Assembly: GCF_018128245.1 (NCBI RefSeq)
Contig: NZ_CP072378.1
Coordinates: forward strand, 434,001-498,000
Direction of reading: 5' to 3'
From: Leptotrichia sp. oral taxon 221
Lineage (GTDB): Bacteria > Fusobacteriota > Fusobacteriia > Fusobacteriales > Leptotrichiaceae
Length of the DNA: 64,000 nucleotides
The notes beneath the pieces are model-generated. The model had not been told where the DNA came from and made no database searches. It was given only the letters and a program-made list of their open reading frames with translations. Positions 57,245-62,088 of this stretch are shown here, piece after piece. The translations under genes and the position numbers were made by a program. How positions within the stretch are numbered: position 1 is the stretch's first letter; each line of letters opens with the position of its first letter.

Positions 57245-58144
57245 ATGAATGAGAAGAAGTTAGTGAGAAAAGGAAAAATAGGAAGCGGAGAGGCTCATAG
57301 TAAGATTATTTTGATAGGAGAGCATTCGGTTGTTTATGGCTATCCAGCTATTGCGATACCTTTGAAAGATATTTTGGTAAAATGTCGGATAATGGAAGCA
57401 AAGAGTAAATATTTCTATAATCCTGAAGATACGCTTTCGACTGCGATTTATACAGCTTTGAAATATTTAAAAAAAGAGAATGCTAAAATAAAATATTTGA
57501 TAGAATCTGAAATTCCAACAAAAAGGGGAATGGGATCTTCGGCAGCTGTTAGTATTGCGGCGATAAGGGCAGTTTTTGATTATTTTGGTAAAAATCTAGA
57601 TGATAAAATTCTGGAAAAAATGGTGCAAGAGGCAGAAACAGTGGCTCATATGAATCCAAGTGGATTAGATGCGAAGACTTGTTTGAGTGATAAAGCCTTG
57701 AAATTTATAAAAAATAAAGGATTTAGCTATATTGATTTGAATTTGGGGGCATATTTGGTTGTAGCAGATACTGGAGTTCATGGAAATACACGAGAAGCTG
57801 TGGAAAATGTAAGAGAAATGGGGGATAAAGCTCAACCAATGTTAAAAAATTTGGGTGAATTGACTGAAAAAATGGAAATTGCTATCCGAGAAAAATCATT
57901 GGAAAAAATTGGAGAAATTATGAATCAGGCTAATTTGGAATTGAAAAAATTAAATTTGACGATAGAAAAATCGGATATTTTAGTGGAGGAAGCTTTAAAA
58001 AATAGTGCTTTGGGTGCTAAAATATCTGGTGGAGGATTAGGCGGTTGTATAATTGCTTTGGTGGAAAATGAGGAAAAAGCAAGAATAATTGGGGAAAAAT
58101 TAAGTTCAAAAGGAGCTGCGAATATATGGATAGAAAGAATTTAG
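57245..58144 (+). CDS. mvk: Mevalonate kinase
   Basis: A GHMP-family kinase that phosphorylates mevalonate. Motifs: GEHSVVYGYPAIAIP near residue 26, the ATP loop PTKRGMGSSAAVSIAA near 91-106, and the third motif KISGGGLGGCIIALV near 262. The length of 299 residues is normal. It is the first of four lower-mevalonate genes in the order seen in streptococci (mvk-mvaD-pmk-fni), and it overlaps mvaD by 19 bases. Confidence 0.93.
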   Translation: MNEKKLVRKGKIGSGEAHSKIILIGEHSVVYGYPAIAIPLKDILVKCRIMEAKSKYFYNPEDTLSTAIYTALKYLKKENAKIKYLIESEIPTKRGMGSSAAVSIAAIRAVFDYFGKNLDDKILEKMVQEAETVAHMNPSGLDAKTCLSDKALKFIKNKGFSYIDLNLGAYLVVADTGVHGNTREAVENVREMGDKAQPMLKNLGELTEKMEIAIREKSLEKIGEIMNQANLELKKLNLTIEKSDILVEEALKNSALGAKISGGGLGGCIIALVENEEKARIIGEKLSSKGAANIWIERI

Positions 58145-59100
58145 AGAAAAATATAAAAAAAGTGAAATCGTATGCGAATATTGCGATTATAAAATATTGG
58201 GGTAAAAAAGATGCAGAGAAGATGATTCCTGCAACAAGTAGTATTTCATTGACTTTGAAAGATATGTATACTGAAACTGAAATTAGTTTTATTTCGGATG
58301 AAGAGGCGATTGAGAAAACTGGCGAAGTGACGGATTTGATTTATATTAATGGAGAGTTGCAAGATAGGGAACAAAGACAGAAAATTGGGAAAGTTATTGA
58401 TTTATTTAGAGGAGATAGAAGTGAGAGAGTGAAAGTTGATACTACGAATAGTATGCCGACTGAAGCGGGATTATCTTCTAGCTCAAGCGGACTTTCTGCA
58501 GCAATAATGGCATGTAATGAACTATTTGAAAAGAATTTAAGTCGAAATGAATTGGCACAAATTTCTAAATTTGCTTCGGGGTCTTCTTGTAGAAGTTTTT
58601 TTGGACCAGTAACTGCGTGGGATAAAGATACTGGAGAAGTTTACAAAGTGAAAACAAACTTGAAATTTGGAATGATAATGCTAGTTTTAAATGATGCAAA
58701 AAAGGTAATTTCAAGCAGAAAAGGGATGGAAATTTGTACAAAAACGTCAAAAACTTTTGAAAATTGGGTAAAACAGTCAGAAATTGATTTTGTTGAGATG
58801 AAAAAATATTTGGCAGAAAATGACTTTGAGAAAGTTGGGAAATTAACAGAAGAGAATGCCTTGAGAATGCATGAAATACCACTTACAGCGACACCTTCAT
58901 TTTCATATTTGTCTGACAAATCGCATGAAGCAATGAATTTTGTGAGAAAATTGCGAAAAAATGGTGAAAAATGTTATTTTACAATGGATGCAGGGCCTAA
59001 TGTGAAAGTTTTGTGTTTGGAAAAGGATTTGGATAGATTGAAGGAAATTTTTGAAAAAAAATATAGAGTGATAGCTTCTAGAGTTGTAGAACTTGGATAA
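58126..59100 (+). CDS. mvaD: Diphosphomevalonate decarboxylase
   Basis: This enzyme decarboxylates mevalonate diphosphate to isopentenyl diphosphate. Diagnostic stretches: YANIAIIKYWGKKD near residue 16, PATSSISLTL, the ATP loop PTEAGLSSSSSGLSAA near 110, ASGSSCRSFFGP, and TMDAGPNVKVLC near the end. The length of 324 residues is typical. It overlaps the mvk 3' end. Confidence 0.95.
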   Translation: MDRKNLEKNIKKVKSYANIAIIKYWGKKDAEKMIPATSSISLTLKDMYTETEISFISDEEAIEKTGEVTDLIYINGELQDREQRQKIGKVIDLFRGDRSERVKVDTTNSMPTEAGLSSSSSGLSAAIMACNELFEKNLSRNELAQISKFASGSSCRSFFGPVTAWDKDTGEVYKVKTNLKFGMIMLVLNDAKKVISSRKGMEICTKTSKTFENWVKQSEIDFVEMKKYLAENDFEKVGKLTEENALRMHEIPLTATPSFSYLSDKSHEAMNFVRKLRKNGEKCYFTMDAGPNVKVLCLEKDLDRLKEIFEKKYRVIASRVVELG

Positions 59101-59216
59101 TTGAGATTTTTTGAAAGTGTAAAAAATTAAGAAAATATTTGATTATGAGAGATTTTTTTTATTTTATAAATTGATTTTTTGAGATAGAAGTTTTGGAAGA
59201 GAAATAGTGAGGAAAA

Positions 59217-60338
59217 ATGCGAGAAAAAATAAATGTAAAAACTGGTGGAAAGCTATATATTGCTGGAGAATATTCGGTTTTGACGCCTGGACAAAGTGCG
59301 ATAATTAAAAATATTGATATTTTTATGAATGCAGAGATAAGTTTTCTTGGAGAAAATGAAGATAGAAATGATGAAAAAATAGAAAAGGCAGATAAAAGTA
59401 AAGAGAAAAATGATTTTAAAAAATATGAAATTTTTTCTGATATGTTTGATTATTCAGTTTCGTTGGAGTATGATAAAAATTATTCGTTGATTCAGGAAAC
59501 GGTGGTTGTTGTAAATGAATATTTGGAGAATAAAGGGATTGATACACAGCCATTTAAATTGAGAATTACTGGGAAAATGGAAAAAAATGGTAAAAAATAC
59601 GGGATTGGTTCGAGTGGAAGCGTGACTGTTTTGGTTGTAAAAGCGATGTTTGAGTTGTATTCTAGAAAATTGGTTTCAGAAGTGGAATTTAAAGGGCAAA
59701 GAAGTGAGTTGCTTGAATATTTATCATCAAAGGATACGATGTTTAAGTTGTCGTCTTATGTTTTACTAAAACGAGGGGATAATGGCTCTATGGGGGATAT
59801 TGCTTGTATTACTTATGGGAATTTGGTTGCGTATAAATCGTTTGATAGGGAGAAAATCCAGAAGGAAATTCGAGAAAAAAATTTGGAGAAGGTTTTGAAG
59901 TTAGATTGGGGATATGAGATTGAAGAGTTAAGATGTTCTGGTAATTATGAATTTTTGGTTGGTTGGACTAAAAAACCGTCTATTTCGAAGGATATGATAA
60001 ATTTAGTGAAAAGTTCAATAACTCAAGATTTTTTAAAAAAAGTAGAAAAAATTGTTCAAAATTTGAAATTGGCTATGAAAAATGGCAATAAAATGGAAAT
60101 AAAGAGAAATATTTTGGAAAATGGGAATGAATTAAAAAAATTAAAGGAAGAAATTTATAGTGAGGAATTAGTTGAATTAGTTGAAGCGACAGAAAATCTT
60201 GATGTTTGTGCAAAAAGTAGTGGCTCTGGTGGAGGCGATTGTGGGATTGCGATTTCTTTTTCAAAGAAAGATAGCGAGATTTTGGTAGAAAGATGGAAAT
60301 CAGTTGGGATAGAATTATTGTATAAAAGTGAGTTATGA
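59217..60338 (+). CDS. Phosphomevalonate kinase
   Basis: A GHMP kinase that makes mevalonate diphosphate. It has KLYIAGEYSVLTPGQSAII near residue 12, the ATP loop KYGIGSSGSVTVLVV near 128, the DIACITYGNLVAYKS block and the C-terminal AKSSGSGGGDCGIAI. A charged stretch near residues 45-65 is longer than usual. In streptococci the gene is called mvaK2. It lies 116 bases after mvaD and is cotranscribed with fni. Confidence 0.92.
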   Translation: MREKINVKTGGKLYIAGEYSVLTPGQSAIIKNIDIFMNAEISFLGENEDRNDEKIEKADKSKEKNDFKKYEIFSDMFDYSVSLEYDKNYSLIQETVVVVNEYLENKGIDTQPFKLRITGKMEKNGKKYGIGSSGSVTVLVVKAMFELYSRKLVSEVEFKGQRSELLEYLSSKDTMFKLSSYVLLKRGDNGSMGDIACITYGNLVAYKSFDREKIQKEIREKNLEKVLKLDWGYEIEELRCSGNYEFLVGWTKKPSISKDMINLVKSSITQDFLKKVEKIVQNLKLAMKNGNKMEIKRNILENGNELKKLKEEIYSEELVELVEATENLDVCAKSSGSGGGDCGIAISFSKKDSEILVERWKSVGIELLYKSEL

Positions 60339-60372
60339 GAAGGTAAATATAGAAGATAAAAGGTGGAAATTT

Positions 60373-61389
60373 ATGATACAGAATAGAAAAGATGACCATA
60401 TAAATTATGCGTTAGAGCAAGAAAAAAGTGAAAATAGTTTTGATGATATGGAGCTAATTCATCAGTCGATACCGAAGTACAATTTAGATGAAATTGATAT
60501 TTCTACAAGTTTTGCGAATAATTATTTTGAAGTTCCATTTTTTATTAATGCGATGACAGGTGGGAGTGAGAGGGCAAAATCAATTAATCAAAAATTGGCA
60601 AAGATAGCTGATAAATGTGGTCTTCTGTTTGTTACAGGTTCGTATAGTGCAGCTTTGAAAAATCCAGATGATAATTCTTACAAAATAATAAAAGAGGAAA
60701 ATGAGCATATTAAATTGGCTACAAATATTGGAATTGATAAAAATTACACGGCTGGTCAGAAGGCAATTGAAGATTTAAATCCATTATTTTTGCAGATACA
60801 TGTGAATTTGATGCAGGAATTGTTGATGCCAGAAGGAAGTCGAAATTTTAATGAGTGGGAAAATAATTTGAAAGAATTTGTAAAAAATATAAAGAACACA
60901 CCACTTGTTTTGAAGGAAGTTGGATTTGGAATGACTTCTGATACAATAAAAAAAGGTATAGAATTAGGGATAAAGACTTTTGATATTAGTGGTCGAGGTG
61001 GCACGAGTTTTGCGTACATTGAAAATCGCCGGAATGGGAATCGTTTTACCTATTTGAACGATTGGGGACAAACGACATTGGCGAGTCTTTTGGATATTCA
61101 AAAGTTTACTGAAAAAGTAGAAATTATCGCAAGTGGCGGTGTTAGGAATCCTTTAGATATCATCAAAGCATTAATTTTAGGAGCAAAAGGAGTAGGAATT
61201 TCTGGAACGATGTTAGAAATTATTGAAAATTATTCGATTGAAGAAGCAATTGAAATTGTAAATAGTTGGAAAATGGAATGCAAAATGATAATGTGTGCTT
61301 TGAATACGAAAAAAATTAGCGAATTAAAGAATGTTAAATATGTTTTGTATGGGAAAACGAAGCAATTTTTAGAAAATATTAGGAATTAA
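60373..61389 (+). CDS. fni: Isopentenyl-diphosphate delta-isomerase, type 2
   Basis: The FMN- and NADPH-dependent isomerase that converts IPP to DMAPP. It has NRKDDHINYAL at the start, the flavin-binding PFFINAMTGGSERAK, DISGRGGTSFAYIE and the phosphate-binding IASGGVRNPLDIIKAL and GAKGVGISGTM. I choose ATG 60373, with AAGGTGG six bases upstream, which gives 338 residues. The ATG at 60328 lies inside the previous gene and has no such site. Confidence 0.94.
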   Translation: MIQNRKDDHINYALEQEKSENSFDDMELIHQSIPKYNLDEIDISTSFANNYFEVPFFINAMTGGSERAKSINQKLAKIADKCGLLFVTGSYSAALKNPDDNSYKIIKEENEHIKLATNIGIDKNYTAGQKAIEDLNPLFLQIHVNLMQELLMPEGSRNFNEWENNLKEFVKNIKNTPLVLKEVGFGMTSDTIKKGIELGIKTFDISGRGGTSFAYIENRRNGNRFTYLNDWGQTTLASLLDIQKFTEKVEIIASGGVRNPLDIIKALILGAKGVGISGTMLEIIENYSIEEAIEIVNSWKMECKMIMCALNTKKISELKNVKYVLYGKTKQFLENIRN

Positions 61390-61477: not shown

Positions 61478-61966
61478 TTATTTAGCTTCTTTTTTAGCTT
61501 TTGCTGAAACTGATTCAGTTGCTAAGAAAGAATTTAACATCCATAAATGTTTTTCGAAACTTGAAATGTATTCATCAGCTAATGCAGAAGTACCGTAGTT
61601 ATCTTCAGAATCTGCAGCTTCTTTGAATGCAACAGCTAAGTCTAACATAGTTTCAAATCCATTTCTTACTTCAGTTAATGCTTCAGTAGAAGTAATATCT
61701 TCATTTTTAGCTTCTTTAATTGAAGCAACATTTAAGTAATCTTTCATAGTTCCTAAAGGTCTTCCACCAATTGCTAAAATGTTTTCAGCAACATCATCGA
61801 TTTGTGTATTAATTTCTGTGTAATATTCTTCTAATTTAACGTGAATTTCAAAGAAATCTTTTCCAATTAAATTCCAGTGGTAGTTTTGAACCTTTCTATA
61901 AAGTACGTTTAAATTTGCTAAATAAAGATTTAATGCTTCAATACTTTTTGTTCTATTTTTACTCAT
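61478..61966 (-). CDS. dps: Dps-family ferritin-like DNA-binding/iron storage protein
   Basis: Dps proteins form 12-mers that oxidise and store iron and protect DNA from peroxide. The ferroxidase motif YHWNLIGKDFFEIHVKLEEY at about residues 29-48, then DDVAENILAIGGRP, is clear. A Lys/Ala-rich tail (AKAKKEAK) could bind DNA. I start at the ATG at 61966 (162 residues), since the one at 61975 overlaps the GAGG site. A perfect promoter and two palindromes lie upstream. Confidence 0.93.
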   Translation of the reverse strand: MSKNRTKSIEALNLYLANLNVLYRKVQNYHWNLIGKDFFEIHVKLEEYYTEINTQIDDVAENILAIGGRPLGTMKDYLNVASIKEAKNEDITSTEALTEVRNGFETMLDLAVAFKEAADSEDNYGTSALADEYISSFEKHLWMLNSFLATESVSAKAKKEAK

Positions 61967-62003
61967 AATTATCATCCTCTTTCAATTTTATATTTATTTT
62001 AAA

Positions 62004-62018
62004 TTGTAACTGTTACAA
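62004..62018. promoter_or_regulatory. Palindromic operator in the dps leader
   Basis: TTGTAACTGTTACAA is a perfect 7-1-7 palindrome. A near copy lies 37 bases away over the predicted transcription start. Confidence 0.65.
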
Positions 62019-62040
62019 AATTATTATAATTATTTTATTT

Positions 62041-62055
62041 TTGTAACCATTACAA
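62041..62055. promoter_or_regulatory. Palindromic operator at the dps transcription start
   Basis: TTGTAACCATTACAA repeats the other site with two central changes. It lies four bases downstream of the -10 box on the dps strand, where a repressor would block transcription. Confidence 0.68.
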
Positions 62056-62059
62056 AATT

Positions 62060-62088
62060 ATTATACTACTTTTTGAAAAAAATGTCAA
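62060..62088 (-). promoter_or_regulatory. Consensus promoter of dps
   Basis: On the minus strand, TTGACA (62083-62088) and TATAAT (62060-62065) are separated by exactly 17 bases. Confidence 0.85.

Follow-up and report, generated by a model that had tools for sequence, protein, structure and literature searches.

Paired palindromes at the dps promoter of Leptotrichia sp. oral taxon 221 are very probably PerR operators with a family-variant box

The two 15-base palindromes at the dps promoter of Leptotrichia sp. oral taxon 221 are very probably operators of the genome's own PerR, with a box variant of the family Leptotrichiaceae, and not sites of an unknown regulator. This assignment draws on the sites themselves, their conservation and shared targets, a single true Fur-family gene, its PerR residues, and the joint absence of regulator and sites in relatives. 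The initial annotation of this DNA (a stretch of 64,000 nucleotides, here called the window) had proposed the operator of an undescribed peroxide- or metal-responsive repressor. An operator does very probably lie at the dps start point, but its regulator need not be undescribed, because the box is of the 7-1-7 PerR type, the sole true Fur-family protein of the genome is a PerR, and the same site is found at its own promoter. Bacillus subtilis PerR has mrgA/dps, ahpCF and perR among its targets, and it is textbook knowledge that PerR controls dps, ahpC and perR.

Results

The dps promoter and its paired palindromes

NCBIfam Dps models are the top matches for the dps protein of the window (Table 1), with scores under their cut-offs. 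Its true start is probably the second ATG, at 61966, because many homologues begin with MSK. The TTGACA-17-TATAAT promoter and the two palindromes that had been described upstream of this gene were confirmed on the minus strand. The palindromes begin 4 and 41 bases past the -10 element, with a mutual offset of 37 bases; the site at 62004 is a perfect 7-1-7 palindrome, and the site at 62041 pairs at 6/7 positions. The pair arises from one 37-bp tandem repeat, the two units of which agree at 29/37 bases, including 23/25 in the first part.

The initial annotation also pointed to a PerR-box-like stretch between the palindromes. The 12/14 match exists, but it is probably due to chance: the stretch shares bases with the TATAAT copy that the duplication created, and the window has 7 matches at 12/14 and none higher. 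We have rejected it as a part of the system on these grounds.

Matches of at least 14/15 to TTGTAAYNRTTACAA are confined, within the 64-kb window, to the two dps palindromes. The same window contains 13 perfect 7-1-7 palindromes irrespective of sequence and 93 loose matches to the motif (up to 3 mismatches; 61 expected), so that neither palindromy nor a loose match is rare by itself. The weight therefore rests on sequence, position and conservation. Downstream of dps, at 57245-61389, there is a gene run that by eye looks like a mevalonate pathway, with three kinase/decarboxylase-like ORFs and one isopentenyl-diphosphate-isomerase-like ORF.

Table 1. Features of the dps region, in window coordinates.
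Feature	Position	Strand	Basis
dps, ferritin-like, 165-aa ORF	61478..61975	-	Pfam Ferritin 77.3 bits
-35 element, TTGACA	62083..62088	-	sequence
-10 element, TATAAT, 17-base spacer	62060..62065	-	sequence
Putative PerR operator 1, TTGTAATGGTTACAA, 4 bases after -10, over expected start point	62041..62055	-	sequence
Putative PerR operator 2, TTGTAACAGTTACAA, in 5' untranslated region	62004..62018	-	sequence
37-bp tandem repeat, 2.3 copies, doubling TATAAT and operator	61984..62065		repeat analysis, 85% matches
PerR-box-like stretch, 12/14, judged chance	62024..62038	+	sequence

Conservation of the box in Leptotrichiaceae

The dps gene was found in 45/60 relatives, a set with no member of the window's genus, and 32 dps loci of the family Leptotrichiaceae were read. 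A site was counted when it matched the motif at 13/15 positions or more within 250 nt upstream; dinucleotide shuffles and the reversed motif served as controls. Such sites precede dps at 26/32 family loci (shuffle expectation 1.2), perR at 26/31 (0.8; the 5/31 loci with no site of 13/15 are scored as misses, though some may be operon-internal) and ahpC at 24/27 (0.85), with no match to the reversed motif in any of the three sets. The ahpF-like gene has a site at 22/29 loci (shuffle expectation 0.7; reversed motif 7/29), a count that leaves out G020, which has no upstream DNA, as well as G013, G003 and G012. The palindromes thus pass the test that the initial annotation had itself named, conservation upstream of dps in related genomes.

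The consensus of the 98 best sites is TTGTAATNATTACAA, a 7-1-7 palindrome. The originally described motif, TTGTAAC with its C at position 7, is an uncommon form, shared by 4/98 family sites. Placement is mostly at the -10 element or the start point. At dps, 24/26 sites adjoin a recognisable -10 (the first site of the window included), and at 17 loci, namely the window and 16 others, the site lies exactly 4 bases after it. Named members with a dps site are Leptotrichia hongkongensis (L003) and Streptobacillus notomytis (L013), and G005 has one as well. The best dps sites of G026 and G027 lie upstream of the promoter, and three of the four genomes of genus g10 have weak dps sites (12/15).

Outside the family, within the same order, a dps site of at least 14/15 occurs at 3/13 loci, upstream of -35, and a perR site of at least 13/15 within 130 nt at 11/19 loci. 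None of ten non-fusobacterial Dps loci has an upstream site of 13/15; the site is therefore not a general feature of dps. The ahpC sites of G002, G029 and G031 are visible with 250 nt upstream and lie beyond the reach of 170 nt. In these genomes (L165-L167 for G002, G031 and G029) box and ahpC are separated by about 120 additional bases, the ends of which by eye form inverted repeats; this may be a small mobile element.

The Fur-family regulator

Only one true Fur-family gene is present in the genome of the window (G000:C1:271815-272234). Its product matches PF01475 with 86.5 bits (cut-off 23.1), which assigns it the Fur-family fold, and among PDB entries it matches B. subtilis PerR best (E 1.3e-24). 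The best NCBIfam model is that of PerR (NF052545), at 103 bits versus a cut-off of 180; these models are seemingly tuned to other lineages, judging by their names. PF01475 has one further match in the genome, within a 404-aa ORF; by eye this ORF reads as an ATPase, and we do not count it as a true Fur-family protein.

Residues were compared across 50 PerR-like loci of the order, a part of those matched. The protein of this genome has all five regulatory metal ligands, which are conserved among the 50 loci as follows: H37 in 50, D85 in 48, and H91, H93 and D104 in 49 each. It also has all the structural zinc cysteines, C96, C99, C136 and C139, arranged as two CxxC motifs and present in 49, 49, 45 and 45 of the 50 loci, the rest being gaps in local alignments. 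N61, the PerR specificity residue at which Fur has R, is found in 50/50 aligned loci, this protein included. The perR promoter reads TTGACA-17-TAGAAT, and its -10 element is overlapped by the site TTGTAATAGATACAA. In G001, which has no dps, two PerR-like genes (L118, L091) are present, each with an upstream site of 13-14/15.

The predicted regulon

We used promoter-anchored patterns because bare motif scans are noisy in A+T-rich DNA: with up to two mismatches, a scan of the genome gave 125 matches, versus 85 for the reversed pattern. The combined promoter and box pattern, applied to 33 family genomes, yielded 58 matches in 26 of them and none when reversed. By coordinates, 52/58 precede dps (18), the ahpF-like reductase gene (16), ahpC (16) or sufC (2); the remaining six are five dps boxes on the other strand and one match at G021:C1:1864377. 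A relaxed pattern run on the genome of the window returned perR, dps, ahpC and one unrelated match, preceding a 96-aa ORF (control 0). No site was found upstream of the ahpF-like gene of this genome (best 10/15), and no peroxide gene is suitably placed for either of two perfect promoterless sites (G000:C1:615921 and 737361). AhpC scores above its NCBIfam cut-off; the ahpF-like reductase aligns with the carboxy-terminal portion of AhpF at a score under the cut-off.

It is very improbable that the single Fur-family protein is a general, Fur-like iron repressor that acts on these boxes and senses peroxide only as a secondary role. Being the sole true member of its family in the genome would suit it to such a function, and the targets include dps, for iron storage, and sufC, for iron-sulphur assembly, the latter in a few relatives. 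However, N61 and D104, which PMC8638851 gives as canonical residues setting PerR apart from Fur, are conserved, the targets found are peroxide-defence genes, and the promoter-anchored scan of the genome itself gave no iron-uptake promoter among its matches.

Sites at sufC and genomes without perR

The sufC counts cover 30/33 loci, of which 7/30 have an upstream site of at least 13/15; the sufC gene of the window's genome has none (best 12/15). In G013 (L271, 1958-1972) and G007 (L272, 960-974) a perfect box adjoins the -10 element of the sufC-sufB operon. These two are small genomes, with no site at ahpC in G013, nor at ahpC and the ahpF-like gene in G007. Four genomes of genus g10 have the sufC site at -157, away from the probable promoter, and G021 has it at -175.

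Three genomes, G003, G004 and G012, have neither a FUR-domain match nor a dps site. The dps site thus occurs in 26/29 genomes with perR versus 0/3 without (Fisher p 0.004, to be read against only about two independent losses, one in genus g4 and one in G004 within g5). Within genus g5, G013, where PerR is present, has TTGTAATGATTACAA before sufC. In G004 (L274, no PerR), a single case, the same place is one base short and reads 7-0-7, so that the 7-1-7 spacing is broken; this looks like decay after loss of the regulator.

The joint absence with perR also bears on the idea that the palindrome is bound by an undescribed repressor outside the Fur family, for example of the MarR or TetR type. Many repressors could use a 15-bp palindrome that covers a start point, but the 7-1-7 geometry is that of Fur-family boxes and the site recurs at the perR promoter, and we regard such a repressor as very improbable.

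Comparison with Zur

Twelve of 19 Zur-like matches were examined (L194-L205, in zur-znu operons). They share with PerR the Fur fold and a 7-1-7 palindrome near the promoter, and differ from it in both residues and box: R61 in 12/12 and none of the PerR regulatory ligands, as against N61 and the ligands in PerR, and the palindrome TGCRAAYNATTYGCR in 12/12 loci. This palindrome is found in 0/119 upstream regions of dps, perR, ahpC and the ahpF-like gene and, conversely, a PerR-type site above 12/15 stands at 0/12 zur promoters. A search of the window's genome gave no Zur-like match. A Zur operator would call for a Zur encoded in the genome and for zur promoters with the same site, and neither was found for the dps palindromes. 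Barring an unrecognised Zur, it is extremely improbable that these palindromes serve Zur or some other metal-sensing paralogue of Fur and that dps answers to zinc. What speaks for Zur is that dps immediately follows zur-znuA-znuC-znuB in two genera, g7 and g10 (L197-L200 and L205, where it keeps its own promoter), and that the core GTAATNATTAC is similar to the Zur consensus given for Gram-positive bacteria in PMC545781.

Chance palindromes in A+T-rich DNA, an idea favoured by the 82% A+T of the spacer and the number of perfect palindromes in the window, can be practically dismissed given conservation far above shuffles and no reversed-pattern match in 33 genomes.

Discussion

If the palindromes are PerR operators, a PerR carrying Fe2+ or Mn2+ would occupy the box at the start point together with the second box, which lies 37 bp or about 3.5 helical turns further downstream, and would thereby block RNA polymerase at dps; boxes at this distance may tighten repression. 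Hydrogen peroxide would oxidise the iron site of PerR and release it, allowing transcription of dps, ahpC and perR itself, after which Dps would take up iron and AhpC would remove peroxide.

The Bacillus PerR box has the consensus TTATAATNATTATAA (PMC545781), which the two window sites match at 10/14 and 11/14, short of a canonical box. The family consensus departs from it at two symmetric positions, 3 (G) and 13 (C), and can therefore be described as its G3/C13 variant. The same source documents that PerR boxes drift between lineages. The PerR regulons predicted there for delta-proteobacteria resemble the present one in having a box that drifted from the Bacillus consensus. They differ from it in having other boxes and mainly local regulation of neighbours, whereas the targets here are unlinked.

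The predicted regulator shares with B. subtilis PerR its place among the Fur-family repressors, the metal ligands and N61, a 7-1-7 palindrome, the kinds of target and a site at its own promoter. Apart from the G3 and C13 of its box, it differs in its recognition helix, with T57 and T62 in Leptotrichiaceae versus A57 and N62 in B. subtilis, in the small target set found, and in an ahpF-like protein that is without the amino-terminal part of AhpF. It is possible, though less likely than not, that PerR shifted its DNA specificity in Leptotrichiaceae (T57/T62 together with G3/C13, next to a sister Zur on its own palindrome) and, in G007 and G013, was rewired from ahpC/ahpF to the Suf operon, so that a peroxide sensor would set Fe-S assembly.

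Our literature search, largely of open-access papers, found no PerR box described for Leptotrichia or Fusobacteria. As far as that search reaches, the family box, the accompanying T57/T62 and the suf sites in a few genomes are new. The biology is already textbook, and the variant box is modest news. What it gives an anaerobic family is a concrete predicted operator, along with a predicted core regulon of PerR that comprises perR, dps, ahpC and the ahpF-like gene. Together, the variant box, the altered helix, the joint absence of regulator and operator, and the distinct Zur box would make Leptotrichiaceae a natural series for studying specificity change in the Fur family.
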